NCBI GenBank assembly: GCA_030065655.1
Contig: JASJDT010000009.1
Location: 1-33,220 of the forward strand
Length of the DNA stretch: 33,220 nucleotides
Direction of reading: 5' to 3'
From: Desulfocapsaceae bacterium
GTDB taxonomy: Bacteria; Desulfobacterota; Desulfobulbia; Desulfobulbales; Desulfocapsaceae
The position numbers were made by a program, and so were the translations under genes. This document shows positions 7,843-30,042 of this stretch, one piece after another. Each line of letters opens with the position of its first letter. Within the stretch, counting starts at the first letter, position 1. The notes under the pieces were generated by a model. That model worked only from the letters and a program-made list of their open reading frames with translations, made no database searches and was not told the DNA's origin.

Positions 7843-9096
7843 ATGAGTGAACTCATATTAATCAATATTTCCGGTAAAGACCGACGTGGGCTGAATTCCA
7901 GATTCAGTTCCCTGATGGCACAATATGATGTCAACATCCTTGATATCGGTCAATCGGTTATCCATGAACATATATCTCTTGGTATCTTGGTTGAAATTCC
8001 CGAGGCCGGTGATTTTCCGGCTCTCTATAAGGACATACTCTACGAAGGGCATAATCTTGGTTTAGCGGTGGAGATAAAAGCTGTAGCTCATGACCGTTAT
8101 GAGTCATGGGTGAAAGCTCAGGGTCAGGAAAGGCGCAAAATAACACTTCTCGGCAAAAAGATTACCGCCCAGCAGATTTCCGGTGTTACCTCGGTGATTT
8201 CAGAAAATGGTTTGAACATCGACTCAATATCCAGGTTGACCGGTCGCATTTCCCTGGCCAATCCCCAGCTTAATCCACGAGCCAGCATTCAATTGACAGC
8301 AAGCGGAAAGCCGAAAAATATCAAAGAAATGCGTAGAAGTTTCATGGAGATTTCTAGGCAGACCGGCATTGATATCTCATTTCATGTCGATAGTATCTAT
8401 ACCCGCAACAGAAAGTTGGTTGTTTTTGATATGGACTCGACTCTCATCCAGGTGGAGGTAATCGATGAATTGGCCAAGCTGGCTGGAGTTGGCGCCGAGG
8501 TTGAAGCTATTACTACGGCAGCCATGCGTGGTGAACTCGATTTCAAGGAAAGCTTTCGTAGGCGGGTTGCTCTGCTCAAAGGGCTGGACGAGCACAAACT
8601 CTCCCTTATAACCGACTCGCTACCTCTGGCTGAGGGCACCGAGATTGTGACAAAAACACTGAAGGGACTGGGCTATAAGCTGGGTATCCTATCCGGCGGG
8701 TTCACCTTCGTGGGTGAGTATCTCAAAAGGAAACTGGGCTTTGATTACCTCTATGCCAATACTCTTGATATAGCCGATGGGAAAGTTACCGGAGAGGTAG
8801 TCGGAGACATCATTGACGGCGAGAAAAAGGCTGAATTGCTGGCGATGATCGCGGAAAAGGAAAACATTCATCTTGACCAGACCATTGCCGTTGGTGATGG
8901 CGCCAATGATCTGCCCATGATCAGCCTGGCTGGGCTCGGTGTTGCTTTTCACGCCAAACCGGTAGTCAGGGAAAAAGCGGGCAATACCATCACCAGTGTT
9001 GGCCTGGACGGTCTACTCTACCTGATCGGCATTCATGATCGGGAAATACGTCAGGAAGAAGAAACGCTCCAGGTTGATCTGGACCAGGAGCGTTAG
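7843..9096 (+). CDS. serB: Phosphoserine phosphatase with N-terminal ACT domains
   Basis: HAD motif VVFDMDSTLIQVEVIDELA; GDGANDLPMISLAGLGVAFHAKP; N-terminal tandem ACT. Confidence 0.95.
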   Translation: MSELILINISGKDRRGLNSRFSSLMAQYDVNILDIGQSVIHEHISLGILVEIPEAGDFPALYKDILYEGHNLGLAVEIKAVAHDRYESWVKAQGQERRKITLLGKKITAQQISGVTSVISENGLNIDSISRLTGRISLANPQLNPRASIQLTASGKPKNIKEMRRSFMEISRQTGIDISFHVDSIYTRNRKLVVFDMDSTLIQVEVIDELAKLAGVGAEVEAITTAAMRGELDFKESFRRRVALLKGLDEHKLSLITDSLPLAEGTEIVTKTLKGLGYKLGILSGGFTFVGEYLKRKLGFDYLYANTLDIADGKVTGEVVGDIIDGEKKAELLAMIAEKENIHLDQTIAVGDGANDLPMISLAGLGVAFHAKPVVREKAGNTITSVGLDGLLYLIGIHDREIRQEEETLQVDLDQER

Positions 9097-9108
9097 CTCT
9101 GAGAGCCT

Positions 9109-9228
9109 CTATTTCTTGGTTGGTGTTGATCGCAGGATCAGGCAAAGGCGTAGAATGGCCTGATAGGTATCCCAATCTTTGGTAGCAAGAAGAGCTTGTT
9201 TAGTGAAGGCTATTTCATTTTTCAGCAT
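9109..9228 (-). CDS. 39-aa small ORF downstream of the cobalamin riboswitch/terminator
   Basis: MLKNEIAFTKQALLATKDWDTYQAILRLCLILRSTPTKK with strong SD AAAGGAGG; absent from the supplied ORF track because of its length. Confidence 0.6.
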   Translation of the reverse strand: MLKNEIAFTKQALLATKDWDTYQAILRLCLILRSTPTKK

Positions 9229-9266
9229 TGGTTCCTCCTTTGGTCCTGATTGAAGGTTCGCAAGCT

Positions 9267-9302
9267 AAAAAGCCCCGAACCAAAAAGGTTGATCCGGGGG
9301 CC
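9267..9302 (-). terminator. Intrinsic terminator between cobalamin aptamer and 39-aa ORF
   Basis: Minus strand CCCCCGGATCAACCTTTTTGGTTCGGGGCTTTTT. Confidence 0.75.
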
Positions 9303-9359
9303 CTGATTTCACCACAGATACAAGATTTCGACCTTTTTCCGCGAAGGTCAGTCAAATGA

Positions 9360-9512
9360 GTTTGAGGCAGGTCTTCTGACTTCCGGATCATCCCTTACCT
9401 GCGCCTTCCCGGCCATTCGGCCAGTGGCAAATGCAGGTTCAGTTCCCGGTCACAGCGGCGGGCCCGTTTCCGAATTACACGGAATTCCCTATTATGTCGT
9501 TTCGACACCTCT
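9360..9512 (-). ncRNA. Cobalamin riboswitch aptamer
   Basis: Minus strand GGGAATTCCGTGTAATTCGGAAACGGGCCCGCCGCTGTGACCGGGAACTGAACCTGCATTTGCCACTGG...GGGAAGGCGCAGGTAAGGGATGATCCGGAAGTCAGAAGACCTGCC carries the conserved B12-box and GCCACTG blocks. Confidence 0.93.
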
Positions 9513-9520
9513 AAATTCCG

Positions 9521-9549
9521 ACCATACCATAGCTTAAATTTGCGGTCAA
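9521..9549 (-). promoter_or_regulatory. Sigma70-like promoter for the cobalamin riboswitch transcript
   Basis: Minus strand TTGACC-N17-TATGGT. Confidence 0.6.
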
Positions 9550-9799
9550 TTAGTATGTTTGTGTTTTTTAGGATACTCCATGTGGTATCTTCTTAGTTGA
9601 AAATCTCTAAGTACGGAGCAGCTTCACCTTGCAAAATTACAATTTAGACGTATATTCAGAGGTCTTTTGGCAGGAGATAGACCAAGTTCACGTGAATTGT
9701 TGCTGAAAGCGATAACTTGTATAGGCAGGATATTGCCTCATTTTTCATCAGCAGAGCTTTGAGCACAGCAAAAGTAGGCAAGAGGAAAGCGACAGACAT

Positions 9800-9815
9800 T
9801 GGCTTTGAACTTGCA
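9800..9815 (+). promoter_or_regulatory. Candidate sigma54 (-24/-12) promoter for the glcD-glcF operon
   Basis: TGGCTTTGAACTTGCA, GG-N10-GC spacing, 80 bp upstream of the glcD ATG. Confidence 0.65.
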
Positions 9816-9895
9816 AAGCTTATTATGTCTTTAGCGAGAATGAAACTATGTGGATCGTGAATAAAGTACACAAAAATTTACGAGGTTTGTAGAGT

Positions 9896-11299
9896 ATGAA
9901 ACAAAACGTGTTGGCGGAACTGGTCGAAATTGTCGGTAGTGCCAATGTGTCGGAGGCTGCAAGCGATAGAATCACGCATTCCTACGATGCCACTAAAGAA
10001 CAGTTTTTACCAGATGTGGTCGTCTATGCTGAGAACAGCGAGCAGGTCAGTAAAATTGCCAGGTTGGCCAATACCAGAAAAATACCACTTCTGCCACGAG
10101 GAGCCGGCTCCGGGTTCACCGGTGGTACCCTTCCCATACGAGGTGGTATTGTCTTGGTGCTTACCAGAATGAACCGAATTCTGCAGATTGATAGCGACAA
10201 TCTGACGGCGGTGGTGCAGCCGGGTGTAGTGACCGCGGATCTGCAAAAAGAGGTGGAGAAACAAGGACTCTTTTATCCACCAGATCCTGCCTCCAAGGAT
10301 TTTTCGACCCTCGGCGGTAATGTCGCAGAGTGTGCCGGAGGTCCAAGATGCGTTAAATATGGAGTGACCAAAGATTTTATCATGGGGCTAGAGGTGGTTA
10401 CACCTCAGGGAGATATCATCCGAACCGGCGGCCAAACGTTAAAAAATGTGGTGGGCTATGATCTTACCAAACTGATCGTAGGATCTGAAGGTACACTTGG
10501 AATAATTACCGAAATTACCTTGAAATTGGTACCTAAACCCGAAGCCAAGAAAACCATGCTGGTTCAGTTTGAAACCATCGAAGGTGCAGCTCAGGCAGTT
10601 TCCGCCATTATTCGGGAGAAAATCATACCGACAACCCTTGAGTTTATGGATGCTGCAACAATAGACTGCATCAGGTCTATTTCGCCAATAGCCCTGCCGG
10701 CAACATGCAACGCTTTGCTGATAATTGAAGTGGATGGAGATCCGGAACTTATCGAGAAACAGGCAAAGAGGATTATGACCGTTATTGAACCGCTTGGCAT
10801 AGTCGAGGTCAAGGTTGCCGAAACCTCAACGGAGTCGGAAAAGATATGGCAGGTTCGCCGCAATGTCAGTCCCAGTCTGCGAAAAGTTAATCCCGATAAA
10901 TTTAATGAAGATATTGTGGTACCGCGCTCAAAGGTTCCCGATATGATCCGGGCCTTAGAGAAGTTGTCTAAAGATTATAATGTGCCAATTGTTAATTTTG
11001 GTCATGCTGGAGATGGCAATATCCATGTCAATGTCATGGTGGATTTGCGCGAGCCAGAGATGGAGGAGAAAGTTCACGAAGTGATGGAAAAAATCTTTGC
11101 AACGGCGGTGGGGTTGAAGGGGTCTCTCAGCGGTGAGCATGGTATTGGTACATCAAAAGCACGTTATCTTTCAATGGAGCTCGACTCCGCCACCATTTCC
11201 TATATGCAGGCAGTCAAAAATGCATTTGACCCGAATAATATATTAAATCCCGGCAAGATTTTTACGGCCGATCGGGAAGAGCAGATTAGTAGCGAATAG
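9896..11299 (+). CDS. glcD: FAD-linked 2-hydroxyacid dehydrogenase (glycolate/D-lactate type, GlcD family)
   Basis: PRGAGSGFTGG, PPDPASKDFSTLGGNVAECAGGPRCVKYGVTKDF, GHAGDGNIHVN, GEHGIGTSKA. Confidence 0.93.
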   Translation: MKQNVLAELVEIVGSANVSEAASDRITHSYDATKEQFLPDVVVYAENSEQVSKIARLANTRKIPLLPRGAGSGFTGGTLPIRGGIVLVLTRMNRILQIDSDNLTAVVQPGVVTADLQKEVEKQGLFYPPDPASKDFSTLGGNVAECAGGPRCVKYGVTKDFIMGLEVVTPQGDIIRTGGQTLKNVVGYDLTKLIVGSEGTLGIITEITLKLVPKPEAKKTMLVQFETIEGAAQAVSAIIREKIIPTTLEFMDAATIDCIRSISPIALPATCNALLIIEVDGDPELIEKQAKRIMTVIEPLGIVEVKVAETSTESEKIWQVRRNVSPSLRKVNPDKFNEDIVVPRSKVPDMIRALEKLSKDYNVPIVNFGHAGDGNIHVNVMVDLREPEMEEKVHEVMEKIFATAVGLKGSLSGEHGIGTSKARYLSMELDSATISYMQAVKNAFDPNNILNPGKIFTADREEQISSE

Positions 11300-12629: not shown

Positions 12630-13967
12630 CTAAAACGTGACTTCCTTAAAGGCTTTATCAGGAAAGAAACAGTAGGGACATGCCGATGGCGGCGAATCAC
12701 CATAGTGGACGTAGCCACAGATGCGGCAGCGCCAAGTTTTTCCAGTATTAGGCGGAGTCTGGGCATCCAGGGGATCGTGCTCCCGGTGGAGGGCGAGATC
12801 CTCCAGTTTCGGCAGGCTGGGAGTATATTTTTTCATGAGATGATCGGAGAGAATCAGGCGTTGGATCTCACTGGTTCCCTCGTATATCCTTAGCAGCCTG
12901 ACATCCCGCAGTATTTTCTCAATGGGAAACATCTTGGTGTAGCCATAGCCGCCAAATATCTGCAGTGCTTCATTGACCACCTCCAGAGCGGCTTCCGAGG
13001 CATACATCTTCGCTGTGGAAGCGCTCACCGTGTTATCCAGTCCTTGGTCGGAGTCCCAGGCAGCCTTCAGAGTAAGCAGGCGTGAAGTCTCTATTTTTTG
13101 AAACATTTCCGCCAGCTTAAACTGTATTGCCTGAAAATTAACGATGGGTGCTCCAAAGGCTTGGCGTTTCTTGACATAATCAAGTGAGTATTCCAAGGCG
13201 GCTCTGGCAGCACCTACCCCAAACGAGCCGATGATTGGCCGCGTTCTGGCAAAAGTCTTCATGGCCAGAACGAACCCCTCTCCTGGCAGAGCAATGACAT
13301 TTTCCTTTGGCACACGGACATCCTTGAAATGAATGCCTACCGTGTTTGAACAACGCTGGCCCATTTTGGGTATATGGCGACCGGCAGTGACGCCAGGCCA
13401 CGCTGTTTCAATAAAGAAAGCGCAAATTCCTTTGTGTCGCGATTTTGGGTCGACGGTGGCGAATACAGAGAGATAATCTGCTATGCCGCCGTTGGTAATC
13501 CAATATTTTGTGCCGTTGAGAATATAATCCTCACCGTCTTGGGCGGCCTGGCAGCGGATACCGGCAACATCAGAGCCCATGGTCGGTTCCGAAGTGGCAA
13601 ATGCTGCAAGCTTATTGTCTTTGGCGATTTGATTAAGGTATTTTTGTTTGGCATCTTCATTTTCTGAAAGCAGCAGCGGTTCCATTCCCAGGGAGCTGTC
13701 GAAAATTGAAGTGGCCAGCCCCGAGCAGGCCGCAGCAATCTCTTCAGTAATAATTGCCGATTCGATCAAGCCAAGCCCCCGGCCCCCATACTTTTTGGGG
13801 ATGTCAGCGCCAACGAAGCCAGCCTGGAAAGCTTTGTTGATAATTTCCCGAGGAATTTCATCTTTTTCATCATAGTACCAGGCAACCGGCAGGACTTCTT
13901 TGAGGGCGAATTCCCGAGCTTGCTCTTGTATTTTCAGCTGTTCCGGGGTGAGATGAAAGTTGAGCAT
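12630..13967 (-). CDS. Acyl-CoA dehydrogenase with C-terminal rubredoxin-like domain
   Basis: ACAD signatures (FATSEPTMGSDVAGI, YWITNGGIADYLSVFA, RIYEGTSEIQRLIL) followed by WRCRICGYVHYGDSPPSACPYCFFPDKAF. Confidence 0.92.
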   Translation of the reverse strand: MLNFHLTPEQLKIQEQAREFALKEVLPVAWYYDEKDEIPREIINKAFQAGFVGADIPKKYGGRGLGLIESAIITEEIAAACSGLATSIFDSSLGMEPLLLSENEDAKQKYLNQIAKDNKLAAFATSEPTMGSDVAGIRCQAAQDGEDYILNGTKYWITNGGIADYLSVFATVDPKSRHKGICAFFIETAWPGVTAGRHIPKMGQRCSNTVGIHFKDVRVPKENVIALPGEGFVLAMKTFARTRPIIGSFGVGAARAALEYSLDYVKKRQAFGAPIVNFQAIQFKLAEMFQKIETSRLLTLKAAWDSDQGLDNTVSASTAKMYASEAALEVVNEALQIFGGYGYTKMFPIEKILRDVRLLRIYEGTSEIQRLILSDHLMKKYTPSLPKLEDLALHREHDPLDAQTPPNTGKTWRCRICGYVHYGDSPPSACPYCFFPDKAFKEVTF

Positions 13968-16181: not shown

Positions 16182-17228
16182 CTATTCGATTATGAGCTGA
16201 TCGGGGATATCTATTCCCTGTTCTCGAAAAAAACGGGCCGCACCAGGATGGAGTGGGATAGGTAATCCGGATATGGCGTTCTGCAAGGTCATGGCGCGGG
16301 TTGCCTGGTGGATATTATTGAGGAAATCTAGATTATTGTAGATGGTTTTAACAATTTTGTAGACCGCTTCATCATCGACATCATAACGTACAGCCATAAA
16401 ATTAGGTTGAGCTATTGTACGTATTGTCTGATCCTGCAGTGGATAGGTGCCTGCAGGTATATCATATTCACTCCAGAGCCCATAGCCTTGGTTAATGCGC
16501 TCAAGTTGTTCCAAAGTGCATTCCAAGACCGTGATATCTTTTCCCAGAGCGGTAAAGGCACGAGCAACGGCACTTGCCGGTGGACCTGCCGGTATATTAA
16601 TGCCAGCAACTGACCCATTCATGAGGGCTTCAGCGCTCTCTCCATAGCCAAGATGGACGAGCTGGAAATCCCTCTCCGGAGTGAAGCCGAGCCGTTTAAG
16701 AATATGGCGACCGGATCCTTCAGTTCCTGAATTTTCCTCTCCTATGGAAAATCTCCTGCCGATCAAGAGTTCCATATCACTGAGATTTCCACTGCGGACC
16801 AGATCCGATTGGATGGTAAAATGTTCGACGTTGCGCCAGAGCATGGTAACCGAACGCAGAAATTTTTTTGGTCCGGTGTCGGTAAAAGCTCCTTTGCCAT
16901 TCCAGGCCCAGGCACCATAGAGGCCCTGTAAGATGGCAAACTGCGCCTCATTATTGCCAAGAAGTCGAATGTTTTCACCGGAACCGGCTGAACTGATTGC
17001 CGATAGTGAGATCTTATCCTTCGGTTCAAGCTTGATCTTGGTCAGGGTGGCAACGGCAACCCCAACCGGATAATACGTTCCACCCGTGGTGGCGGTGGTG
17101 AAAGTATAATTTCCCTCACTTTTTGACATTAATGGAGTGGCAAGGCAGAACAAAACAGCAATAACCGGCAGGAGCAGGGAATGGGAGGGGACACTGCCTC
17201 TACGGTCGACATGCCCTTTAAAGATCAT
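16182..17228 (-). CDS. TAXI-family TRAP transporter solute-binding protein (second copy, no adjacent permease)
   Basis: YTFTTATTGGTYYPVGVAVATL...SAGSGENIRLLGNNEAQFAILQ; start may be 17228 or 17270, overlapping the end of the response-regulator gene. Confidence 0.88.
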   Translation of the reverse strand: MIFKGHVDRRGSVPSHSLLLPVIAVLFCLATPLMSKSEGNYTFTTATTGGTYYPVGVAVATLTKIKLEPKDKISLSAISSAGSGENIRLLGNNEAQFAILQGLYGAWAWNGKGAFTDTGPKKFLRSVTMLWRNVEHFTIQSDLVRSGNLSDMELLIGRRFSIGEENSGTEGSGRHILKRLGFTPERDFQLVHLGYGESAEALMNGSVAGINIPAGPPASAVARAFTALGKDITVLECTLEQLERINQGYGLWSEYDIPAGTYPLQDQTIRTIAQPNFMAVRYDVDDEAVYKIVKTIYNNLDFLNNIHQATRAMTLQNAISGLPIPLHPGAARFFREQGIDIPDQLIIE

Positions 17229-18609
17229 TATTTTCATTTTCCTGAAGAAAGTTTTTGCGGGATATTCCATGGTTTTTCATCTTCTGATTGAGGGTGCGCC
17301 GGGGTAGTTCAAGTTCTTCGAGTACCGCACTGACATTTCCCCGATGACGTTTCAATGAGTATTCAATTACACAACGCTCAAAGTTGGCGGCTTGATCGGC
17401 AAGTGAGAAAAATTCGGATTGTTTCTCCAGGGAACTATGCTGAAGGATATGTCTAACCCGCTGTTGTGGCGGCAGGGAAGAGAGAATATAACGCTCAGCA
17501 GCGTTTTTTAACTCACGAACATTACCTGGCCAGTTGTGGGTCATCATCAACCGAATGTTGTCATTGTCCAAAGGTGGCGTATCCCGTTCATAGCGTTCCG
17601 CTGCCTGAAGACAGTAGTACTCAAAAAGTAAGATGATATCACTGCCACGCTGACGCAGCGGTGGAATCTTGATTTCGGCGACATTGAGGCGATAGTAGAG
17701 ATCCTGACGAAAGCTTCCATCCGCACATGCCTGGCGCGGATCACCATTGGTGGCGCTGATGATTCGAATATCAATGGGAATTGCCTTGTTACTGCCTAGG
17801 CGCTCTATTTCTCTTTCCTGGAGTACGCGCAGTACTTTCACCTGCAGATTTGGCGGCATGGCATTTACTTCATCGAGAAAAAGGGTACCGCCGTTGGCTT
17901 TTTCAAACTTGCCGATGCGCCGCCCTTGGGCACCGGTGAAGGCTCCTGGCTCGTGACCGAACAATTCACTCTCAAATAACGTCTCCGGTATGGCACCACA
18001 ATTTATGGCCACAAAATTTTCTTTGCCTCTTCCGCTTATTTCATGGAGGCAGCGGGCAACCACTTCTTTTCCTGAACCGGTTTCGCCAACCAAAAATACA
18101 CTGGCATCCGTTGGTCCAAGGTCCTGGATTTCCTGATGTAGAAACTGGATGGGCTCACTATTGCCAAGCAACTTTTTTTCCAGGCCGGTCGACTGATCGA
18201 GCTTGCTTTTCAATGCTCTGTTTTCCAGAATAAGGCGTCTTTTTTCTCCGGCCCGGCGGATGGTTTCCAAGAGTATTTCCGGTTCGAAGGGCTTTTCAAT
18301 GAAGTCATAAGCGCCGCTACGCATGGCCGAGACAGCCATAGGAATATCACCATGGGCAGTGATAAAAACAACCGGGATTTGGTAATCTATCGCCAAAGCT
18401 TTTTCCATCAGTTCAATGCCATCCATGCCAGGCATACGGATATCGGTCACCAGTACCCCGTCAAAATCAACGGAGAGATGCGGTAAAACCGCATCGGCCT
18501 GGTCAAAACTTTCTACTTCATAGTCACTGAGACTGAGCCACTGAGCAATGGACACCCTCATGCTCTCTTCATCATCGACTACGAACACCTTCTCCACCCT
18601 GGTTGACAT
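17218..18609 (-). CDS. dctD: NtrC-family sigma54-dependent response regulator, DctD-like
   Basis: REC domain; AAA+ GETGSGKEVVARCLHE, sigma54-contact GAFTGAQGRRIGKFEKANGGTLFLDEV; Fis-type HTH at C-terminus. Confidence 0.93.
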   Translation of the reverse strand: MSTRVEKVFVVDDEESMRVSIAQWLSLSDYEVESFDQADAVLPHLSVDFDGVLVTDIRMPGMDGIELMEKALAIDYQIPVVFITAHGDIPMAVSAMRSGAYDFIEKPFEPEILLETIRRAGEKRRLILENRALKSKLDQSTGLEKKLLGNSEPIQFLHQEIQDLGPTDASVFLVGETGSGKEVVARCLHEISGRGKENFVAINCGAIPETLFESELFGHEPGAFTGAQGRRIGKFEKANGGTLFLDEVNAMPPNLQVKVLRVLQEREIERLGSNKAIPIDIRIISATNGDPRQACADGSFRQDLYYRLNVAEIKIPPLRQRGSDIILLFEYYCLQAAERYERDTPPLDNDNIRLMMTHNWPGNVRELKNAAERYILSSLPPQQRVRHILQHSSLEKQSEFFSLADQAANFERCVIEYSLKRHRGNVSAVLEELELPRRTLNQKMKNHGISRKNFLQENENNDL

Positions 18610-18613
18610 ACAT

Positions 18614-20404
18614 TCACTCCTGACCTGCTTGCGGCAGCTCCACTATAAATTGGGCACCACCTGCCTGAAGATTTTCAGCTCGAATACTTCCGTCCATGTC
18701 CTCAACAATACCATAGGCAATTGACAGACCCAGCCCCAACCCTTTGCCGATTTCCTTGGTGGTAAAAAAAGGATCAAACAGCGAGTCCATAACCTCGTCC
18801 GATATACCAGCACCACTGTCTGAAACTGTTAATATGGCTTTTTCATTGGTTGTTTGCAGCAAAACCTTAATAGTTTTGGACGATGCCTGTTGCACGGCAT
18901 CGAGACTGTTGTGCAGGAGATTACTCAGTACTTGCTCGAGCTGCAAGCTGTCGCCGCGGATCGAAACACGGCAATTCCTGTCCACTTCCGTGCTAAGTGC
19001 TACTCCCGCTTTACTGCATTGAGGTTCCAATTGACGAACAACATTGTAGATCAACGCGCCAAGTTCAATAGTTACCACCTTTCCTTTTCTCTTTCTGGCA
19101 AAGGTTTTTAGTTGTCCAGTTATTTTTCCCATACGGTCAGTGAGGCCGGCAATAAAGTCGAGGTTCTCGTTTACCTTGTCTACCTCATTGCGCTCAAGCA
19201 GTATTCGGCAACTGGCCACAAAAGTACGTATGGCTGTGACAGGCTGATTGAGTTCGTGAGCGATAGCAGCAGACATGCGGCCCAGGGCAGCAAGTTTATC
19301 TGCTTGAACGAGTTCTCTTTGGGTTTGGCGCAGATCGTTTTCTGTTAGCTGGTGTTTGGCAATTTCCAGTCTAAGCCGCTCGTTGATTTCACCAACGGCT
19401 TGGGCTCTTTTGGCTTCCTGACGGGAGATGAGTTTCTGTCTTCTCTCCCGAATGTAGAGAAATGTTAATAACAAAAACGAAGAGAGAATAGTTGCGACGA
19501 TAATAGCCAAAGCTTTGTTGTTTTTGACGGCTTCAAGACTCGAGAGATAATGTATTCGCCAGCCGTATTCAGGTAGTTGTAAGGCATTTTCGAGATATCT
19601 GGTGGTATCAAGCTGAAGGATATTATAATTTCTGACGCTGTGTCTCTCCAGTTGCAAGGTAGGGAGAGGGAGGTTGAGGTATTTTACCGCTTGCAGCCTC
19701 TGCGTAGTATGATCGGGTAATTCTCGTAGAGATGTATATTTCCATTCCTGATTACTGGTAAGAAAAATTACGCCGAAGGCATCGCTGACAATGACCGCTT
19801 CGCCACTCTTTTTCCAGGTTTCCTGCATTGCTTCCAGGTTGATCTTGACGACGATAACTCCCAGAAAGGATCCCTTATCCTTTACTGGATAGGATAGAAA
19901 AAAACCGGGTTGACGGGTTTGGAGGCCGACGGCGTAGTAGCCGCCGGTTTGCCCCGACCTGGCATCGGTGAAATAGGGCCGGAAGCTATAATTGTGGCCA
20001 AGCAGGCTTTGTGGTGTTCGCCAGTTGCTGGTGGCGACAGTGGTGCCGCCCTGATCGAGGACATAGATCAATGCTCCCGAAGCCCGGGCGAAATCCTCGA
20101 GGTGGGGATTAACCCTGATTGCAGGAATATTGTTCTGGAGCAGGTCAATAATTTTATCATTTCTTGCCAGGACGTAAGGCAGGTGACGATGTTTCTCCAT
20201 GGTGTTCCGCAGGGTGGTTGCATAGAGATTTAGCCGTAACTCACCCGTAGAGGCAAGCTGATCGAGTGTTCTTTTTTCGGTGAGTTCGGCAATTTGCCAG
20301 ATCGAGATGGAGAGTATGGAAACGGTCAGCAAAACAGCAAAAGTTTTGCTTTTAATCACATGGTAAAACTTCTGGTAAGGCTCTGATCTACCTGGACTTC
20401 TCAT
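18614..20404 (-). CDS. dctB: DctB-like sensor histidine kinase (periplasmic Cache domain)
   Basis: Two TMs flanking a Cache domain; GRMSAAIAHELNQPVTAIRTFVASCRILLER; SNLLHNSLDAVQQ; GLGLGLSIAYGIVEDM. Confidence 0.92.
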   Translation of the reverse strand: MRSPGRSEPYQKFYHVIKSKTFAVLLTVSILSISIWQIAELTEKRTLDQLASTGELRLNLYATTLRNTMEKHRHLPYVLARNDKIIDLLQNNIPAIRVNPHLEDFARASGALIYVLDQGGTTVATSNWRTPQSLLGHNYSFRPYFTDARSGQTGGYYAVGLQTRQPGFFLSYPVKDKGSFLGVIVVKINLEAMQETWKKSGEAVIVSDAFGVIFLTSNQEWKYTSLRELPDHTTQRLQAVKYLNLPLPTLQLERHSVRNYNILQLDTTRYLENALQLPEYGWRIHYLSSLEAVKNNKALAIIVATILSSFLLLTFLYIRERRQKLISRQEAKRAQAVGEINERLRLEIAKHQLTENDLRQTQRELVQADKLAALGRMSAAIAHELNQPVTAIRTFVASCRILLERNEVDKVNENLDFIAGLTDRMGKITGQLKTFARKRKGKVVTIELGALIYNVVRQLEPQCSKAGVALSTEVDRNCRVSIRGDSLQLEQVLSNLLHNSLDAVQQASSKTIKVLLQTTNEKAILTVSDSGAGISDEVMDSLFDPFFTTKEIGKGLGLGLSIAYGIVEDMDGSIRAENLQAGGAQFIVELPQAGQE

Positions 20405-20462: not shown

Positions 20463-21695
20463 TCAAATCGACTTACGGACAAGTAGACTGGCATTGGCTA
20501 TATAGGCTGATTCTTCTTGTAAATTTGAGAGAAAGTCAAGAGCTTTACTCTTATCCCACTTTTCTACCCCGATCTTTTTACAGATATCCTCAGTCAGTTC
20601 CGTGACCATGGCAATGCGGATGCGGCGGGTTTTGGTCATCATGGCCAGGGCTGTACCACCGTTACCCTGATAATTCTCTGTAAGTTTGGCAAATGCCCTT
20701 GAAAAATCACCAAGCTCAAACCAGGGAAGAAAGGTGGTTGAGCCGATGTCATCTCGACATTCACTGAAGATGAGCAGTAGCCCGCCGTCTTCAACAAACA
20801 TCGCACTGTTATGAATAGCCTTATGGCTTTGGATGAAGTTGATGTCTTTGGGAAAGCCACCGCAGGAGGCTACTACCACAGGAAATTGGTGAGAGGCTGA
20901 TTCACAGAGACTGCCGTGGTAGCGGCAGGCTTCCAGGTAAGTTTCTCTGGTGGAGCCAATGAGGAAATCACAGACATCACCGTGCGAATTCATTATTCCG
21001 TGGATAGCAAGATCGGATTCCTTGCAATCGGCGATTTCGAAGAGGTCGTCGGCAAGGGGGTTGTCTGCCAGTACACCGGGCTGACAACCGATACTCAACT
21101 CGGCTGTGTTCCGGTCAAGATAGAGTCCATGGTTGGCATAAATCGCCTCGCGTTCACCACAGCCGGGAAAGATGAGTTTTCTTCCTCCTCCATAGCCGGC
21201 AAAATAGTGATGGCAGATAGGGCCAATTGTGATAACGCAGGAAGCATCCAGGATATCCTGACGTATGCGGATTGGCGTACCTTTGGAGGTTGTACCGAGA
21301 TCTTTGAAGCATTCGCCCTGGGTACAATCATGATGGATGAAGGTGAACTTATTATAGGTCTCTCCGTAACATTGATAGCTTTCTTCATCGCTTTGACGCG
21401 GGTGGGTGCCATAGGCGATGATGAAACAAAGCCTCTCAGCCAAGGTACCAAATTTTATTAAGGTCTCGGTCAATATCGGCAGGTAGGTGCCATATCCACA
21501 AACTCGAGTCTTATCGGCTACAATGACAACCGGAGCGCTAAGATCGGGCTGTCTCTCGTGAAGTGCATCATCAAGTATTTGTGAAAAGCGTTCCGGATTC
21601 ATGACAGCTTCAGGCTCACGAATAACTAGAAACGAAGTGCTGTCCGGCAGATCTGCCGGTAAAGATGTATTGCCGTAGGGGATGCTGACGTTCAT
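20463..21695 (-). CDS. larA: LarA-family nickel-pincer-dependent 2-hydroxyacid racemase
   Basis: VADKTRVCGYGTYLP, YGTHPRQSDEE, IGPICHHYFAGYGGGRKLIFPGCGEREAIYANH match the LarA/DUF2088 fold. Confidence 0.88.
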   Translation of the reverse strand: MNVSIPYGNTSLPADLPDSTSFLVIREPEAVMNPERFSQILDDALHERQPDLSAPVVIVADKTRVCGYGTYLPILTETLIKFGTLAERLCFIIAYGTHPRQSDEESYQCYGETYNKFTFIHHDCTQGECFKDLGTTSKGTPIRIRQDILDASCVITIGPICHHYFAGYGGGRKLIFPGCGEREAIYANHGLYLDRNTAELSIGCQPGVLADNPLADDLFEIADCKESDLAIHGIMNSHGDVCDFLIGSTRETYLEACRYHGSLCESASHQFPVVVASCGGFPKDINFIQSHKAIHNSAMFVEDGGLLLIFSECRDDIGSTTFLPWFELGDFSRAFAKLTENYQGNGGTALAMMTKTRRIRIAMVTELTEDICKKIGVEKWDKSKALDFLSNLQEESAYIANASLLVRKSI

Positions 21696-21717: not shown

Positions 21718-22266
21718 TTATCGCATTGAGAAATCAGCACCCATATCGATGCCAAGCTCACAGGCCTTGATGTTCATCTCGAGAAAGTCCCTTGGTACCC
21801 GGGCCTTGACGGCAGCGATCAGCGAGTCCGGCTTGATCATCTCGGTCAAGCCCACCAGGGCACCCAATACACAGATGTTAAAGACGATGGGCTTGCCGAT
21901 CTGCTCCATGACCTGCTCATACATGGGCAGCTCCAGCTGCTTGGCATCCACCTTGGTGGCCTGCTCGACAAAGCGTGAGTCGGTGAGCAAAATACCACCC
22001 GGCCTGATAATCGGGGCAAAGCTGGTATAGGCCGCCTGGGTCAGGCAGACCAGGATGTTGGGTTGGGTAACTCCTGGAAAATCAATCTCATCATGGCTGA
22101 GGATGACATCGCTTCTGGTCGCCCCGCCCCGGGCGGCAGCACCGTAGCTCTGCGACTGGGTGGCGTTCATGCCCTCATGAATGACCGCCGCCTCGGCCAG
22201 GATAATGGCGGCGGTGATTACCCCCTGACCGCCGGAGCCGGAAAAAACAACACGTGTCCGTTTCAT
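21718..22266 (-). CDS. korC: 2-oxoacid:ferredoxin oxidoreductase gamma subunit
   Basis: VVFSGSGGQGVITAAIILAEAAV...QSYGAAARGGATRSDVILS. Confidence 0.93.
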   Translation of the reverse strand: MKRTRVVFSGSGGQGVITAAIILAEAAVIHEGMNATQSQSYGAAARGGATRSDVILSHDEIDFPGVTQPNILVCLTQAAYTSFAPIIRPGGILLTDSRFVEQATKVDAKQLELPMYEQVMEQIGKPIVFNICVLGALVGLTEMIKPDSLIAAVKARVPRDFLEMNIKACELGIDMGADFSMR

Positions 22267-23069
22267 CGCGCACCCCCCATGGCCTTGTCGACCAGTTTAT
22301 CATACTCTTCACAGTATTCGCCGCGTTCCTCTTCAACGAAGATTCCCCGCGGGATGAGATCAGGGTTCTTCTCCAGGGCCTTGGAACCGAGCTTGGCGGT
22401 GGTGTCTTTGTAGAGCTCCAGCATATCCGGGGCATCGCCCTCCTTGTTCTTGCGACCATAATGGGTAGGACACTGGGAGAGAATTTCCACCACGGAAAAA
22501 CCTTTATGCATGATCGCTTTTTTAAGATAGAGGGTCGATTCCTTGGCATGATAGGTGGTCGATCTGGCCACAAAGGAAGCACCGGCAGCCTTGGCCAGCT
22601 TGACCACGTCGAACTCCTGGTCGATGGTCAGAAACGGCGCCGTGGTCGCCCGTTTACCACAGCCGGACAGGGGCGAGAACTGGCCGCCGGTCATGCCGTA
22701 GATCCGGTTGTTCATGACAATGGCGGTAATGTTAATGTTTCTTCTAGCCGCATGGATGAAATGATTGCCGCCGATGGCCAGAGCATCACCATCACCCATG
22801 GGTACCAGCAGATTAAGCGCCGGCTTGGCCAGCTTCACCCCGGTGGCAAAGGCCAGGGCCCGGCCATGCAAAGTGTGCAGGGAGTGGAAGTCGACATAGC
22901 CGGAGATCCTGGCCGAGCAGCCGATCCCCGAGGTCATGACGATATCGTTTTTCGCCAGGCCCAGCTCTTCAACCGCGTGCAGCAGCGAGCTCAGCACGAT
23001 GCCGTGGCCGCAGCCGGGACACCAGATATGCGGAAAGAACCGCTGTCTGAGATAATCTTTGATAGCCAT
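22263..23069 (-). CDS. korB: 2-oxoacid:ferredoxin oxidoreductase beta subunit (TPP)
   Basis: FPHIWCPGCGHGIVLSSLLHA...GDGDALAIGGNHFIHAARRNINITAIVMNNRIYGMTGGQ. Confidence 0.95.
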   Translation of the reverse strand: MAIKDYLRQRFFPHIWCPGCGHGIVLSSLLHAVEELGLAKNDIVMTSGIGCSARISGYVDFHSLHTLHGRALAFATGVKLAKPALNLLVPMGDGDALAIGGNHFIHAARRNINITAIVMNNRIYGMTGGQFSPLSGCGKRATTAPFLTIDQEFDVVKLAKAAGASFVARSTTYHAKESTLYLKKAIMHKGFSVVEILSQCPTHYGRKNKEGDAPDMLELYKDTTAKLGSKALEKNPDLIPRGIFVEEERGEYCEEYDKLVDKAMGGAR

Positions 23070-23071: not shown

Positions 23072-24220
23072 CTATACTCCTCTGCCCTGGATAACCCGCA
23101 GGAGCTGTTTAATATCGGTCGGGGTGATCAACTCGCCGTCGATCCTGTTGGCCAGGAAGACATTTTCCGGATGATCAACCGCACTCTTCACCTGAGCCAG
23201 AACTTGACCCATGTTCATCTCCACCACGATGACCGCCTTGGCCCCGCTGCACTTCTCACGGATCATGGCGGTGGGGAAGGGCCAGATGGACTGGAGCTCG
23301 AGCACGCCTATTTTCTCGCCGCGCTTGCGCCGGTTTTTAGCCAGATGGATGGCCGATCTGGCCGAAGAGCCGTAGGAGACCATGACATAATCGGCATCTT
23401 CTAAGAAATGTTCCTTGTGCCGGGTGATGGAATGGACGTTGTTTTCGATCTTATCGACGATATGATGGAGCAGTTCGTTGACCACCCGGGGATTGTTCGA
23501 AGGAAAACCCCACATGTCATGGAACAGACCGGTGACATTATAGCGGTGGACGTCGCCGAAGTCAGACATGGGCAGCCGGCCGTCTTCCCGGGGCAGGTAG
23601 GGGTGATAGTCCACACCCTTGCCCACCGAAGTGCGCAGCCGGTCAACAATAGGCAGCGCACCTTCTTCGGGGATAACCAGTTTCTCGCGCATATGACCGA
23701 TGGCCTCATCGAGCAAAAGGATGACCGGCGTACGGTAGGTTTCGGCCAGGTTGAAAGCATCCACGGTGATGGCAAAGACATCCTGATGGTTCGAGGCGGT
23801 CAGGGCGATGATTCCATGATCACCGTGGGTGCCCCAGCGTGCCTGGTTGACATCGCCCTGGCTGACATGAGTGGGATTACCGGTGGATGGGCCGCCCCGC
23901 TGGACATTGGCGATAACGCAGGGAATCTCCGCCATGCAGGCGTAGCCGATGGCCTCCTGTTTAAGCGAAAACCCTGGCCCGGAGGTGGCGGTCATGACCT
24001 TCTTACCGGTGAGTGACGCTCCGATGATGGCGCACATGGAGGCGATCTCATCCTCCATCTGGATGAATTTGCCACCTGCCCTTGGCAGTCTGCCGGAGAG
24101 TGATTCGGCGATCTCCGTGGAGGGGGTGATGGGGTAGCCGGCATAGAAGTTGAGCCCGGCATACAGGGCTCCTTCGACACAGGCTTCGTTGCCCTGGACA
24201 AAGCGGATATTATTTTTCAT
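23072..24220 (-). CDS. korA: 2-oxoacid:ferredoxin oxidoreductase alpha subunit
   Basis: GNEACVEGALYAGLNFYAGYPITPSTEIAESL...SGPGFSLKQEAIGYACMAEIP; start set to ATG 24220. Confidence 0.94.
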   Translation of the reverse strand: MKNNIRFVQGNEACVEGALYAGLNFYAGYPITPSTEIAESLSGRLPRAGGKFIQMEDEIASMCAIIGASLTGKKVMTATSGPGFSLKQEAIGYACMAEIPCVIANVQRGGPSTGNPTHVSQGDVNQARWGTHGDHGIIALTASNHQDVFAITVDAFNLAETYRTPVILLLDEAIGHMREKLVIPEEGALPIVDRLRTSVGKGVDYHPYLPREDGRLPMSDFGDVHRYNVTGLFHDMWGFPSNNPRVVNELLHHIVDKIENNVHSITRHKEHFLEDADYVMVSYGSSARSAIHLAKNRRKRGEKIGVLELQSIWPFPTAMIREKCSGAKAVIVVEMNMGQVLAQVKSAVDHPENVFLANRIDGELITPTDIKQLLRVIQGRGV

Positions 24221-24440
24221 GATCGCCTCCCTCACCCTTTTCGGTGATGACCTCGATGGCGAGGTCGGGACACCGTAGTTCACACATTTTACAGCAGATG
24301 CAGTCCTCCGGCCGGACGGCAATACACCTGTCCTGGCGATCAAGTTCCAACACCTGGGTCGGACAGAACTTGATGCAGATGCCGCAGCCCTTACACCAGT
24401 CACCGTTGATAACCAGCTCTTTTAGTTTCTGCTTGGCCAT
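24210..24440 (-). CDS. korD: 2-oxoacid:ferredoxin oxidoreductase delta (2x4Fe-4S) subunit
   Basis: CKGCGICIKFCP, CICCKMCELRCP; ATG 24440 with SD GAGG. Confidence 0.92.
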   Translation of the reverse strand: MAKQKLKELVINGDWCKGCGICIKFCPTQVLELDRQDRCIAVRPEDCICCKMCELRCPDLAIEVITEKGEGGDHEK

Positions 24441-24591
24441 TAAAGTCCTCTTCGTGGGTACACTCTCTAGAGATAAAAAATCCCTGTTAATCAGTTCATC
24501 CGATGTTGCTTGTTCGGTATTTCGAACCATGCAAAACATCCTGCTAGAGGCAACAAGCAGATAAACGCGAATAATATCTGGCTAGTCCTAT

Positions 24592-24607
24592 GGCAATCTT
24601 TGTGCCT
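24592..24607 (-). promoter_or_regulatory. Candidate sigma54 promoter upstream of korDABC-larA-dctB-dctD-TAXI
   Basis: Minus strand AGGCACAAAGATTGCC: GGCAC-N5-TTGC with GG-N10-GC spacing, about 150 bp upstream of korD. Confidence 0.75.
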
Positions 24608-24733
24608 AAAATAATTGTATACCAAAAAAAAGTACAATTCACTAGTAGAGTATTATTCATGTGTAATTCCAAAGAGTAATGTCCAAAGTAGGGTTAACTC
24701 TTAACTTTCTTCCGTTGAGTCTTTGAAGGAGAA

Positions 24734-24753
24734 ATTTGAGTAAATGATCAAAT
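24734..24753. promoter_or_regulatory. Dyad ATTTGA-N8-TCAAAT, copy 1 (candidate enhancer for a sigma54 activator)
   Basis: ATTTGAgtaaatgaTCAAAT; perfect 6-bp inverted repeat; shares 17 of 20 bases with the copy at 24816. Confidence 0.65.
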
Positions 24754-24815
24754 GTGGCGGGCTGAGAGGAGGTTGGTTGCTAAAATGTGAAATGATTACT
24801 TTGTCTTGCTGTTGT

Positions 24816-24835
24816 ATTTGAGTATTTGGTCAAAT
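24816..24835. promoter_or_regulatory. Dyad ATTTGA-N8-TCAAAT, copy 2
   Basis: ATTTGAgtatttggTCAAAT; centre 82 bp from copy 1. Confidence 0.65.
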
Positions 24836-24911: not shown

Positions 24912-25406
24912 TTATTGATCAATATCCTTCTGAGCGCGTTGGCGGAGTTGCTTGGCGACATCGCCGCCGCGATAGGAAAGGATGGGGACCGGGCAGCGGC
25001 GGAACATCCGCTCAGCCACCGAACCGGTGAAGATATGGCGCAGCTCCCGGGTCTTTGTGCCCATGATCACCAGGTCGACCTTTTCATCGAGCACCAGACG
25101 CAGCAGTTCCATGGCCGGATCTCCGGCCAGCAGCTTGTAATCGTAGGCATCATCGGCCATGCCCAGCCGCTCAACCATCCCCTCGAACAGGGCAATCCGT
25201 TCTTCTTGAATGGTCGCCACATACTTGTCACCGTCGATCTTGTAGCCATGACTGGAAATCTTCTCCACCGCCTCCAGGCTCTTCTCGCTGATCACGTTGA
25301 CAATCAGCAGTTTCGCCCCATACGGTTTGGCCAGCCGCAGAGCATAGTCGAGAATGGACTCGGAATAGCTGGAAAAGGCAATGGGCACCAGTATCTTCTT
25401 GAGCAT
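24912..25406 (-). CDS. Universal stress protein (UspA family)
   Basis: KILVPIAFSSYSESILDYALRLAKPYGAKLLIVNV...VIMGTKTRELRHIFTGSVAERMFRRCPVPIL. Confidence 0.92.
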   Translation of the reverse strand: MLKKILVPIAFSSYSESILDYALRLAKPYGAKLLIVNVISEKSLEAVEKISSHGYKIDGDKYVATIQEERIALFEGMVERLGMADDAYDYKLLAGDPAMELLRLVLDEKVDLVIMGTKTRELRHIFTGSVAERMFRRCPVPILSYRGGDVAKQLRQRAQKDIDQ

Positions 25407-25425: not shown

Positions 25426-28017
25426 TCAGGCGGCCTCGGCCTGGGCGGATTGATTTTTGCTGATCCGGCCGCGCTGCAGACGATAGATCACCCCAAAGAG
25501 CAGCACCGCCGGAATAAACATCAGTTGCTTGGGCGGCCGCTCCGCCTCCAGCTGCACACTGAGGATCTCCTGGTCAAAGTCAACACCCGCTTTTTCAGCG
25601 GGACTGGCGAACATGACGTTGTCAACGATGGTCTTGCCCTCATCGACCCGGGTCTCAAAACCCATGCCCTCGATCCGGGCGGCGCCATCCTCCTCATCGC
25701 CCACCGGCAGCATCAGCGTCTTGGTATAGCTGTTGCCGTGAAAGTCCATACCCTCCACCATAATCATCATCTGGGAGCCGGGCGCCATGTTCCCGGCAAT
25801 ATCAGCGATCTCGGTGGCTGGCTTATCCACCAGCGGCGCATACACCTTATCCCAGAAAAATCCGGGCCGGAGCAGCAGAAAGGCGATGAACAGCATGGCC
25901 ACTGTCTCCCAGATCCGGTTATTGGTGAGCATGAAGCCTTGCGTGGCCGCAGCGAAAATCAGCATGGCGGATACCGAGGCGATAATTACGATGACCAGAT
26001 GGAACCAGTTCTGGATGCCGATCATCAACAGCTCATTGTTAAAAATGAAGATAAAGGGCAGAATCGCCGTACGGATATCATAGCCGAAACCCTGAATACC
26101 GGTGCGGATCGGATCACCCCCGGAAATACCCGCCGCCGCAAAGGCGGCCAGCCCCACCGGCGGTGTATCATCGGCGAGGATCCCGAAGTAGAAGACGAAC
26201 AGATGCACGGCAATCAGCGGCACGATAAGGCCGTTTTCCGCACCCAGGTTGACGATAACCGGAGCCATCAGGGTGGAGACCACGATATAGTTGGCCGTGG
26301 TCGGCAAGCCCATACCTAAAAGAAGGCTGATAAAGGCGGTGAATACCAAAATCAGCACCAGGTTACCACCGGAGATAAATTCGACAAATTCGGTCATCAC
26401 CAGGCCGATACCGGTGAGGGTAACCGTACCCACGACAATACCGGCGGCGGCGGTAGCCACGCCGATACCAATCATGTTACGCGCCCCGGAGACCATACCA
26501 TCGATCAGATCAACAAAGCCCTGCGCAGCGGAAAACTGGCTGCCGGTCGCCTTGCGGAGAAGGCCCTTCAGCGGCCGCTGGGTAATAACGATGAAAATCA
26601 GCAGTACCGTCGCCCAGAAAGCCGACAGTGAAGGCGACAGCCGCTCCACGGTGAGGCACCACATCAGCACCACGATGGGTAAAAGAAAATAGTAGCCAGC
26701 CTGGGCAGTGGCCCCGAGCGGCGGCAGTTCGGTGATCTCCGTGGTCAACTCCAGCTCCGGCACCTTGGTGGCCAGGTAGATCAGTGCCAGGTAAGCGACA
26801 GCCAAGAGAACACAGACAATGGCCAGGGTAAAATCGCCTGCCACCAGTTTGATCCAGCCCAGCCCGTAATAGGTAGCTGCGCCGATAACGAGCAAGACCA
26901 CGATGGTGGTGGCAAAACTGAGCAGGCTTTGGGCCAGCGTCCGGGTACGCCTTTTCGCCAAACCCTCAAGGCCAAGCTTGCAGGCCTCCAGGTGAACGAT
27001 GTAGACCAAAGCGATATAGGAGATGATCGCCGGCAGAAAGGCGTGTTTAATAACATCGACATAGGAGATGCCCACATATTCCACCATGAGAAAGGCGGCA
27101 GCACCCATGACCGGTGGAGTCAGCTGGCCGTTGGTGGAAGAAGCCACCTCGACGGCACCTGCCTTTTCCGCAGGAAAGCCTACTTTTTTCATCAGCGGGA
27201 TGGTGAAGGTACCGGTGGTTACCACATTGGCAATGGAAGAACCGGAGACCAGGCCGGTCATGGCCGAGGAAACCACCGCTGCCTTGGCCGGGCCGCCGCG
27301 CAGGTGACCGAGTCCGGCAAAGGCGGTACGGATGAAATAGTTGCCCGCTCCGGCCGCTTCCAAAAGCGAGCCGAAGAGCACGAACATGAACACCATGGAG
27401 GTCGATACCCCCAGGGCCACTCCGTAGACGCCCTCGGTGGTCAGCCAGTAGTGCGACATGCCCTTGACCAGGCTCGCCCCTTTATGGGCGATGACATCGG
27501 GCATATAGGCGCCCCCGAAGGTGTAGATGATAAATACCGTGGCCACCACCATCAGGGGTGGGCCCAGCGCTCTTCTGGTGGCTTCGAGCAGCAGGATCAG
27601 GCCGGTAACCGCCACCACCAGATCAAGGGTGGTCGGGTTGCCGGGCCGATCGGCCAGCTCGTTGTAGAACAGAAAGAGGTAGCCGGCGCAGAAGGCCCCG
27701 ATCAAAGCGATGATCCAGTCCTGGATGGGAATATAGTCCTTGGGTGATGATTTCAGCGTCGGAAAGGCGGTATAGGACAGGAAGATGGCAAAGGCCAGGT
27801 GGATCGAACGAGCCTCGGTGGAGTTGAGCACCAGGATATTGAACATGTAAGGCAGTGGCGAGGCGTACCAGAGCTGAAAAAGCGTCCAGGCCAGCGGGAT
27901 GAAAAACAGCACCTTCTTGGGGAAGCTTCCGGTGGGGTGGCGCCCGCCGCTGTCGGCCTGGGCCACCATTTCATGCAGCTTATCTGGTGACAGCTGGCTT
28001 TCACTGGGTTTGCTCAT
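25426..28017 (-). CDS. TRAP transporter fused permease (TAXI type) with C-terminal DUF3394/PDZ-like domain
   Basis: Multi-TM; SGSSIANVVTTGTFTIPLMKKVGF, NGQLTPPVMGAAAFLMVEYVGISY, LLGMGLPTTANYIV; C-terminal ASPAEKAGVDFDQEILSVQ. Confidence 0.93.
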   Translation of the reverse strand: MSKPSESQLSPDKLHEMVAQADSGGRHPTGSFPKKVLFFIPLAWTLFQLWYASPLPYMFNILVLNSTEARSIHLAFAIFLSYTAFPTLKSSPKDYIPIQDWIIALIGAFCAGYLFLFYNELADRPGNPTTLDLVVAVTGLILLLEATRRALGPPLMVVATVFIIYTFGGAYMPDVIAHKGASLVKGMSHYWLTTEGVYGVALGVSTSMVFMFVLFGSLLEAAGAGNYFIRTAFAGLGHLRGGPAKAAVVSSAMTGLVSGSSIANVVTTGTFTIPLMKKVGFPAEKAGAVEVASSTNGQLTPPVMGAAAFLMVEYVGISYVDVIKHAFLPAIISYIALVYIVHLEACKLGLEGLAKRRTRTLAQSLLSFATTIVVLLVIGAATYYGLGWIKLVAGDFTLAIVCVLLAVAYLALIYLATKVPELELTTEITELPPLGATAQAGYYFLLPIVVLMWCLTVERLSPSLSAFWATVLLIFIVITQRPLKGLLRKATGSQFSAAQGFVDLIDGMVSGARNMIGIGVATAAAGIVVGTVTLTGIGLVMTEFVEFISGGNLVLILVFTAFISLLLGMGLPTTANYIVVSTLMAPVIVNLGAENGLIVPLIAVHLFVFYFGILADDTPPVGLAAFAAAGISGGDPIRTGIQGFGYDIRTAILPFIFIFNNELLMIGIQNWFHLVIVIIASVSAMLIFAAATQGFMLTNNRIWETVAMLFIAFLLLRPGFFWDKVYAPLVDKPATEIADIAGNMAPGSQMMIMVEGMDFHGNSYTKTLMLPVGDEEDGAARIEGMGFETRVDEGKTIVDNVMFASPAEKAGVDFDQEILSVQLEAERPPKQLMFIPAVLLFGVIYRLQRGRISKNQSAQAEAA

Positions 28018-28198: not shown

Positions 28199-29173
28199 TT
28201 ACATCAGGCCGGCTTCTTTGTAGTACTTGGCGGCGCCGTCATGCAGAGGAGCGGAGAGACCGTCTTTGATCATCTCTTCCTTCTTCAGGTTGGCAAACGC
28301 CGGATGCAGTTTCTTGAACTGATCGAAGTTTTCAAAGACCGCCTTGACCACGTTGTAGATCACCTTCTCGTCGACTTTGGCCGAGGTGACGAAGGTGGCG
28401 CCCACGCCGAAGGTGGTGGTATCACCATCGTTGCCGCGGTACATGCCGCCGGGAACGGTGGCGACGCGATAGTAGTCGTTGGCCTCGATCAACTCGGTGA
28501 TCGCCGGGCCGGTGACATTGACCAGGACGGAGTCACAGGAGGTGGTGGCTTCTTTGATGGAGCCGCTGGGGTGACCGACGGTGAAGACCATGGCATCGAT
28601 CTTGTTGTCGCACAGTGCCTTGGACTGTTCGGCGGACTTGAGCTCGGAGGCCAGTTTGAAGTCATCCTTGGTCCAGCCCTTCTTGGTCATGATCACTTCC
28701 ATGGTGCCGCGCTGGCCGGAACCGGGGTTACCGATGTTGACCCGCTTGCCTTTCAGATCATCGAAGTTCTTGATACCGGAATCGGCCCGAGCAACCACGG
28801 TGAACGGCTCGGGATGAACCGAGAAGACTGCCCGCAGATCCTTGTTGGCGCCGGCGTCCTTAAACTTGGAGGTACCGTTGTAGGCATGGTACTGCCAGTC
28901 TGACTGGGCAACACCCATATCCAACTCGCCTGCGGCAATAGCGTTGAGGTTATAGACGGAGCCGCCGGTGGATTCAACCGAGCAGCGGATACCATGCTCT
29001 TTCTTGCCCTTGTTGACCAGACGACAAATGGCGCCGCCGGTGGGATAGTAGACGCCGGTTACCCCGCCGGTGCCGATGGTGACAAACTGCTGGGCACTAG
29101 CCATCTGCACACCGCCAAAGGTCGTGGCAAAACCAAACATCGCTGCTGCTACTAATAATAAACTCTTTTTCAT
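28199..29173 (-). CDS. TAXI-family TRAP transporter solute-binding protein
   Basis: Signal peptide [53 protein letters not shown]; start at ATG 29173. Confidence 0.94.
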
Positions 29174-29301
29174 ACTTCCTCTCCTTGTTGTTAAGGTTAC
29201 ACCTCTTCCCAAAAGAAAGAGTCGAGACACCTGTTAAAAAGTTCTCGGGTGAAAGTTATGAAAGGCCTGAGAAAACATTGGAGATACAACACTTAAATAA
29301 T

Positions 29302-29508: not shown

Positions 29509-30042
29509 TTATTTGGCTAAACGCACCCACGATGCCTGTGGACCTTTATCACCGGTCGTCTCCCCGTAGAATACCGTATCTCCTTCGGAAAGTTCTTCCA
29601 TTTCCACGTTTTTCAGGGCATTCTCATGAAAATAGACATCCCTTTCATCAACCGTGACTATAAAGCCGTAGGATTCATGAGGTGATAGCTTGCGGATGGT
29701 TCCGTAGCTATCGCCATCAGCCAGTGCATCTGTCGGTTTCTTATTTTTCCTTTTCTTTCTAAGGTTTTCTTTTAATTGCAAAGAAAGTACATCAAACGCT
29801 TCAACCAGAAGAGGCCGCACAGCGCCTCCTTTTCTTGTTACCACAACAGTATCATTTGGTACTGATGCAACCAGTTTGATCTCAAACCCTCCTTCTTTAT
29901 GATGAGTAGTGGCTTCAATGACTACTCGGAGATGCAGTAAGTAGGCGGCGAAATTACGAACGAGCTTGTCTTTTTCTTCCTCAACTCTATCTTGCCAGCC
30001 TTTCCGCAGCTCAACGTTACGGGTTTCGATCTTTAGTTCCAT
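29509..30042 (-). CDS. HPF/RaiA-like ribosome-associated domain fused to a cold-shock domain
   Basis: N-terminal MELKIETRNVELRKGWQDRVEEEKDKL...; C-terminal YGTIRKLSPHESYGFIVTVDERDVYFHENAL. Confidence 0.88.
   Translation of the reverse strand: MELKIETRNVELRKGWQDRVEEEKDKLVRNFAAYLLHLRVVIEATTHHKEGGFEIKLVASVPNDTVVVTRKGGAVRPLLVEAFDVLSLQLKENLRKKRKNKKPTDALADGDSYGTIRKLSPHESYGFIVTVDERDVYFHENALKNVEMEELSEGDTVFYGETTGDKGPQASWVRLAK

Follow-up and report, generated by a model that had tools for sequence, protein, structure and literature searches.

A conserved pair of palindromes before a sigma54-type korDABC promoter and a candidate glutamate-to-succinate regulon in Desulfocapsaceae

Introduction

Which regulator acts on the intergenic region upstream of korD, where two dyads with identical half-sites precede a sigma54-like element, and which genes does it switch? 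The question arose from the window, i.e., the whole stretch of DNA that was analyzed, which is one whole contig of 33,220 nucleotides from a Desulfocapsaceae bacterium. An earlier note, made from the sequence alone, had proposed an NtrC-type enhancer, a sigma54 promoter, a single korDABC-larA-dctB-dctD-TAXI transcript, and activation of this transcript by its own DctD.

Genes of the window and extent of the kor transcript

The genes on both sides of the promoter are the following:

16182-17270, minus strand: TAXI solute-binding protein, end of the gene run (TIGR02122; closest solved chain 9ibp)
17218-18609, minus strand: dctD-like response regulator of the NtrC family (GAFTGA loop present), which probably does not bind these dyads
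18614-20404, minus strand: dctB-like dCache sensor kinase (profile match; ortholog absent from the congener G001), probably not the kinase that belongs to these dyads
20463-21695, minus strand: larA-like nickel-pincer 2-hydroxyacid racemase (Lar_N, LarA_C), 22 bp after korC, transcript membership uncertain
21718-22266, minus strand: korC, gamma subunit (family-level profile match)
22263-23069, minus strand: korB, beta subunit (family-level profile match)
23072-24241, minus strand: korA, alpha subunit of a 2-oxoacid:ferredoxin oxidoreductase (NF006412, 520 bits, cut-off 411)
24210-24440, minus strand: korD, ferredoxin-like delta subunit, promoter-proximal gene (Pfam/NCBIfam)
24912-25406, minus strand: universal stress protein gene (USP), with which the upstream TAXI-TRAP-USP block ends (synteny with G001, L195)
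25426-28017, minus strand: fused TRAP permease of the putative glutamate-type TAXI-TRAP transporter (TIGR02123; 80% identical in G001)
28199-29230, minus strand: VcGluP-like, putatively glutamate-type TAXI binding protein (alignment to 8s4j)

The names korD, korA, korB, korC, larA, dctB, dctD, and TAXI, which had been assigned in the earlier note, hold at the family level. The "DctD" is a response regulator of the NtrC family in the generic sense and scores below every NCBIfam equivalog cut-off, and "DctB" is a generic dCache-kinase call. The closest relatives of LarA belong to Desulfobulbaceae MAGs, Desulforhopalus, and Desulfofustis.

The gene spacing is operon-like from korDABC to TAXI. In the genome of the window (G000) as well as in G001 a single korA was assembled at high identity, yet korD is also reached by another contig end, which comes from a different TAXI-TRAP, and, therefore, the kor operon is most likely a duplicated, collapsed assembly repeat. 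In G000 the final 87 bp of contig C81 (12979-13065) are 100% identical to window positions 24380-24466. Due to the collapse, the join between promoter, kor, larA, dctB, dctD, and TAXI is untrustworthy from the assembly alone; the link between promoter and korD is safe, because unique sequence continues into korD. Thus, the first part of the proposed transcript stands, i.e., the promoter is predicted to drive korDABC, and its extension through larA-dctB-dctD-TAXI is uncertain.

A second korDABC copy in this genus (L194, L196, L197) is located after another TAXI-TRAP, together with a divergent XRE-cupin regulator, and the assemblies break or collapse at korD. In L034 (7185-15915) korC-larA-dctB-dctD-TAXI is present without korDAB and has a divergent gene for a 748-aa sigma54 activator in front; this arrangement is either genuine or an artifact that the kor repeat caused in the assembly.

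Dyads and sigma54 element upstream of korD

Four elements were localized in the intergenic region:

24816-24835, minus strand: distal activator dyad ATTTGAGTATTTGGTCAAAT, core TTGACCAAATACTCAA on the minus strand, exact match, same place in G001, PWM score 24.3
24734-24753, minus strand: proximal activator dyad ATTTGAGTAAATGATCAAAT, core TTGATCATTTACTCAA on the minus strand, exact match, conserved in G001, PWM score 24.8
24608-24641, minus strand: third conserved block ATTGTA-N13-TACAAT with a GTATAC core, adjoining the -24 box, common to the korD promoters of G000 and G001 only
24592-24607, minus strand: sigma54 -24/-12 element AGGCACAAAGATTGCC, GG-N10-GC, counterpart AGGCATGGAGATTGCT in G001, predicted transcription start near 24581

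Both observations on which the earlier note was built were reproduced. The GG-N10-GC spacing is present upstream of korD on the minus strand (24607-24592), and the two dyads with identical half-sites are exact, with a step of 82 bp (24734-24753 versus 24816-24835), and the nearer one is located about 128 bp upstream of the -24 box. When the whole 3.84 Mb assembly was searched with ATTTGA-N8-TCAAAT, as had been suggested, the two window dyads were the sole exact copies. When the 471-bp intergenic region was simulated with a Markov-1 model, a single exact dyad occurred by chance with P = 0.00026, and two exact dyads were found in 0 of 100,000 simulated regions.

The element AGGCACAAAGATTGCC has two mismatches to TGGCAC-N5-TTGCW and retains the invariant GG/GC. 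Taken by itself the match is near chance level and not significant (20 comparable matches in the window versus 19.85 expected; P = 0.043 for the 471-bp intergenic region in the simulation); its weight comes from the conservation of its position. The genome encodes RpoN (TIGR02395, 427 bits). A sigma70 promoter or a terminator was not found in the intergenic region upstream of korD, and the 5' leader RNA had a structure z of -1.13 and no Rfam match. Another factor, GntR-like by appearance only, may use the third block as its operator.

Conservation and geometry in related genomes

The comparison of orthologous upstream regions, also proposed in the earlier note, was performed with the congener G001 (97% complete), which has the syntenic block TAXI-TRAP-USP-korD. 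Its intergenic region has strongly diverged from that of the window, save for the dyads, the -24/-12 element, and the ATTGTA-N13-TACAAT block. The dyad starts are exactly 82 bp apart in both, and the distance from the start of the nearer dyad to the -24/-12 element is 146 bp in G001 versus 145 bp in the window. At the sequence level, this conservation of dyads, spacing, and sigma54 distance in diverged DNA is a strong phylogenetic footprint.

In 58 relatives the exact ATTTGA-N8-TCAAAT retrieved mostly isolated sites at chance level, because the outer A/T is not conserved. A search for pairs of TTGA-N8-TCAA in 97 genomes of the family yielded chance matches in coding sequence and one clear class, TTGANNAWWTNNTCAA. 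This 16-bp palindrome, occurring in pairs, is the actual motif. Eleven strict pairs were found in 9 of 263 related genomes, and the reversed-pattern control gave 0. The half-site spacing was N8 in 22/22 sites, and a GG-N10-GC sigma54 element was present 121-132 bp beyond the pair in all 11 cases. The step between the two sites was 81-83 bp at the kor, TAXI, and NAD-GDH promoters and 68-69 bp at the gdhA promoters. The single strict motif was rejected as a marker, as in 24 genomes it matched 0-28 times per genome irrespective of the regulator, and a DNA search with the intergenic region returned only korD-proximal matches and second kor copies.

A composite scoring scan covered 2.34 Mb of loci. 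The strict-pair promoters scored 64-69, and the best score in the shuffled subset, a control that kept base composition only, was -1.2. Two promoters outside the training set were recovered, namely those of korD in G011 (52.4), where the pair is imperfect, and of TAXI in G089 (50.5); the next candidate was sucC in G000 (28.8).

These results bear on the idea that an unrelated factor, e.g., of the FNR/CRP type, uses the palindromes as operators and that the sigma54 match is fortuitous. The TTGA/TCAA half-sites indeed resemble FNR/CRP halves, and the lack of significance of the single sigma54 match would fit. However, the FNR/CRP consensus has TTGA/TGTGA half-sites separated by N6 rather than N8, and an FNR/CRP operator was ruled out on this spacing. 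Furthermore, the sigma54 element lies at the same distance in 11/11 independent pairs, and kor loci of genomes without the regulator described below have neither pair nor sigma54 element, so that an unrelated factor is highly improbable. Taken together, the repeated palindromes at a conserved distance support the view that an NtrC-type enhancer precedes a sigma54 promoter that drives korDABC.

The regulator of the paired palindromes

A response regulator that is encoded within an operon need not activate that operon. The earlier note had assigned the dyads to the DctD at 17218-18609, which would thereby autoactivate korDABC-larA-dctB-dctD-TAXI. This was plausible insofar as DctD has all the parts of a sigma54 activator (receiver, AAA+ domain with GAFTGA, Fis HTH) and its gene is located downstream with operon-like spacing. 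However, G001, the nearest genome in which this promoter architecture occurs, lacks orthologs of DctB and DctD (best match to DctD 46%, to DctB 32-37%). Conversely, G014, G016, L034, and L054 contain DctD orthologs with 61-72% identity, and no paired dyads were detected near their larA/dctB/dctD-type genes; palindromes shared near larA/dctB in DctD-carrying relatives, which might represent DctD sites, were also not convincing in any case. The sites thus fail to co-occur with DctD orthologs. Because the sites exist in G001 without DctB/DctD and are missing from DctD-carrying relatives, DctD is probably the wrong activator, and the recognition helix of its HTH differs from that of the co-occurring regulator. 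We regard control by DctD as very unlikely, and positive autoregulation, which depends on it, is likewise unsupported.

The candidate activator is a 456-aa NtrC-type response regulator that is encoded together with a dCache kinase (G000:C20:2360-3727; G001:C11:77820-79187), and is called C20-type regulator here. Its domains, as analyzed for the G088 ortholog, are a receiver, a sigma54 AAA+ domain with GAFTGA, and a Fis HTH; GAFTGA and the recognition helix are invariant in the alignment of the orthologs. Orthologs with 70-88% identity were found in 12 of the 97 family genomes, that is, in 9/9 genomes with pairs versus 3/88 others (G011, G097, and G100). Fisher's test gave p = 1.5e-10 overall and 0.007 within genus g14, both without regard to ancestry. 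In the regulator-positive genomes G097 and G100 a strict pair was not found. In genomes that lack the regulator, the upstream regions of 17 kor loci, one of them with only 340 bp available, contained the pair in 0/17 cases. In addition, the kinase-regulator genes adjoin target genes in G000, G001, G088, G089, G092, G094, and G098.

Another NtrC-family activator with the same phylogenetic pattern could in principle bind the dyads, as each genome has many activators (more than 100 candidate places in a first look), and two of them were compared across genomes. However, the C20-type regulator is found together with the pairs and, in addition, adjoins target genes, which makes this alternative unlikely. 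The regulator of the switch is thus apparently the C20-type NtrC regulator encoded elsewhere in the genome, and not the DctD of the neighboring operon, as judged from these genome comparisons.

Target genes and proposed mechanism

The paired-dyad promoter faces korDABC in G000, G001, G011, G088, G089, G090, G094, and G098, gdhA in G000 and G002, a 1049-aa NAD-type GDH in G092, and TAXI-TRAP in G001 and G089. Several target genes can be located behind one pair promoter, i.e., korDABC-sucC-sucD-GDH in G089 and korDABC-GDH in G094. In G000 sucCD follows the regulator gene and has a near-consensus sigma54 element with one dyad. The pair is missing at the window's own TAXI-TRAP promoter (gene at 28199-29230), the orthologs of which in G001 and G089 have it, at the kor copy examined in G092, and at the second kor copy of G090.

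Two further arrangements were observed. In L280 (G000:C20) positions 2360-10349 contain the candidate regulator and sucCD, followed by an Lrp-like gene, alanine dehydrogenase, and an AgcS amino-acid carrier. In genus g14 (L253 9944-12255; L250, L254) the paired dyads are flanked by kor or GDH on one side and by a divergent acyl-CoA synthetase-like gene on the other.

L-glutamate is a common ligand of TAXI proteins, and 2-oxoglutarate is known as well (PMC12344293). The TAXI protein at 28199-29230 aligns closely to VcGluP (8s4j), and the equivalents of the ligand residues Y45, S75, and Q93 of VcGluP (PMC11574862) are all conserved, which suggests a glutamate-type, VcGluP-like binding protein. 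Judged from the gene families, the targets would provide uptake, deamination, oxidative decarboxylation, and substrate-level ATP formation for glutamate, and together they resemble a regulon that leads from glutamate to succinate.

The elements, their conserved geometry, and their recurrence before gdh, TAXI-TRAP, and kor/sucCD/gdh can be read directly from the sequences; from them we infer the action of the regulator and its signal. In the proposed mechanism, the dCache sensor kinase adjoining G000:C20:2360-3727 would phosphorylate the 456-aa response regulator, the dimers of which would bind both palindromes, 82 bp apart, and assemble the AAA+ oligomer, which, via DNA looping, would remodel the sigma54-RNA polymerase. 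The signal, deduced from the target genes only, may be extracellular glutamate (or 2-oxoglutarate), and it would turn on uptake, deamination, the oxidative decarboxylation that yields succinyl-CoA, and the step from there to succinate. DctB/DctD of the operon would act on other targets. It is quite probable that korDABC has a sigma54 promoter with a fixed pair of the palindrome TTGANNAWWTNNTCAA, which the C20-type regulator would bind, thereby switching a glutamate-to-succinate pathway. Evenly balanced, in our estimation, is the wider proposal that an undescribed Desulfocapsaceae-type two-component regulator (dCache kinase and NtrC-type protein) controls the whole pathway via a rigid composite promoter, in which two activator dimers with a step of 81-83 bp (at gdhA, 68-69 bp) and a distance of about 120-132 bp to the sigma54 element would imply a geometric constraint on enhancer assembly.

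The predicted regulator, operator, targets, and signal form a testable regulon for amino-acid oxidation in a sediment lineage. In addition, the 13 promoters are a natural set for asking why the spacing of the enhancer-site pair is nearly fixed.

Comparison with known systems

Tandem upstream palindromes that act on sigma54 polymerase at about 100-250 bp are typical of NtrC/DctD-type enhancers in general. Here, the activator is probably a protein other than the downstream-encoded DctD homolog, and the site spacing is nearly constant. The AauS-AauR system of Pseudomonas also combines an NtrC-type regulator and RpoN with two operator copies before a -24/-12 promoter and with glutamate uptake as target (PMC7962211). 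However, the AauR site is TTCGG-N4-CCGAA, in contrast to TTGA-N8-TCAA of the present dyads (PMC7962211), and the AauSR target is an ABC transporter, whereas here it is TAXI-TRAP together with GDH, KOR, and SucCD; the regulators were compared by site and targets. MifS-MifR of Pseudomonas aeruginosa is likewise a two-component system that operates with RpoN, in this case for 2-oxoglutarate use, and the likeness is one of system type and metabolic role (PMC4482717). In the part of the D. vulgaris sigma54 regulome report that was consulted a glutamate regulon is not described (PMC4641369), and nothing relevant emerged when the literature was searched for such a regulon in this lineage. Thus, the class of mechanism is known, and the glutamate-to-succinate regulon is apparently undescribed.

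Additional genes of the window

Three further genes of the window have features of their own. The product of 29509-30042 carries an N-terminal S30AE/sigma54-modulation domain and a C-terminal cold-shock domain, an unusual-looking fusion. An acyl-CoA dehydrogenase with a rubredoxin-like domain at the C-terminus is encoded at 12630-13967, and the gene at 4058-4708 encodes a member of the nickel superoxide dismutase family.
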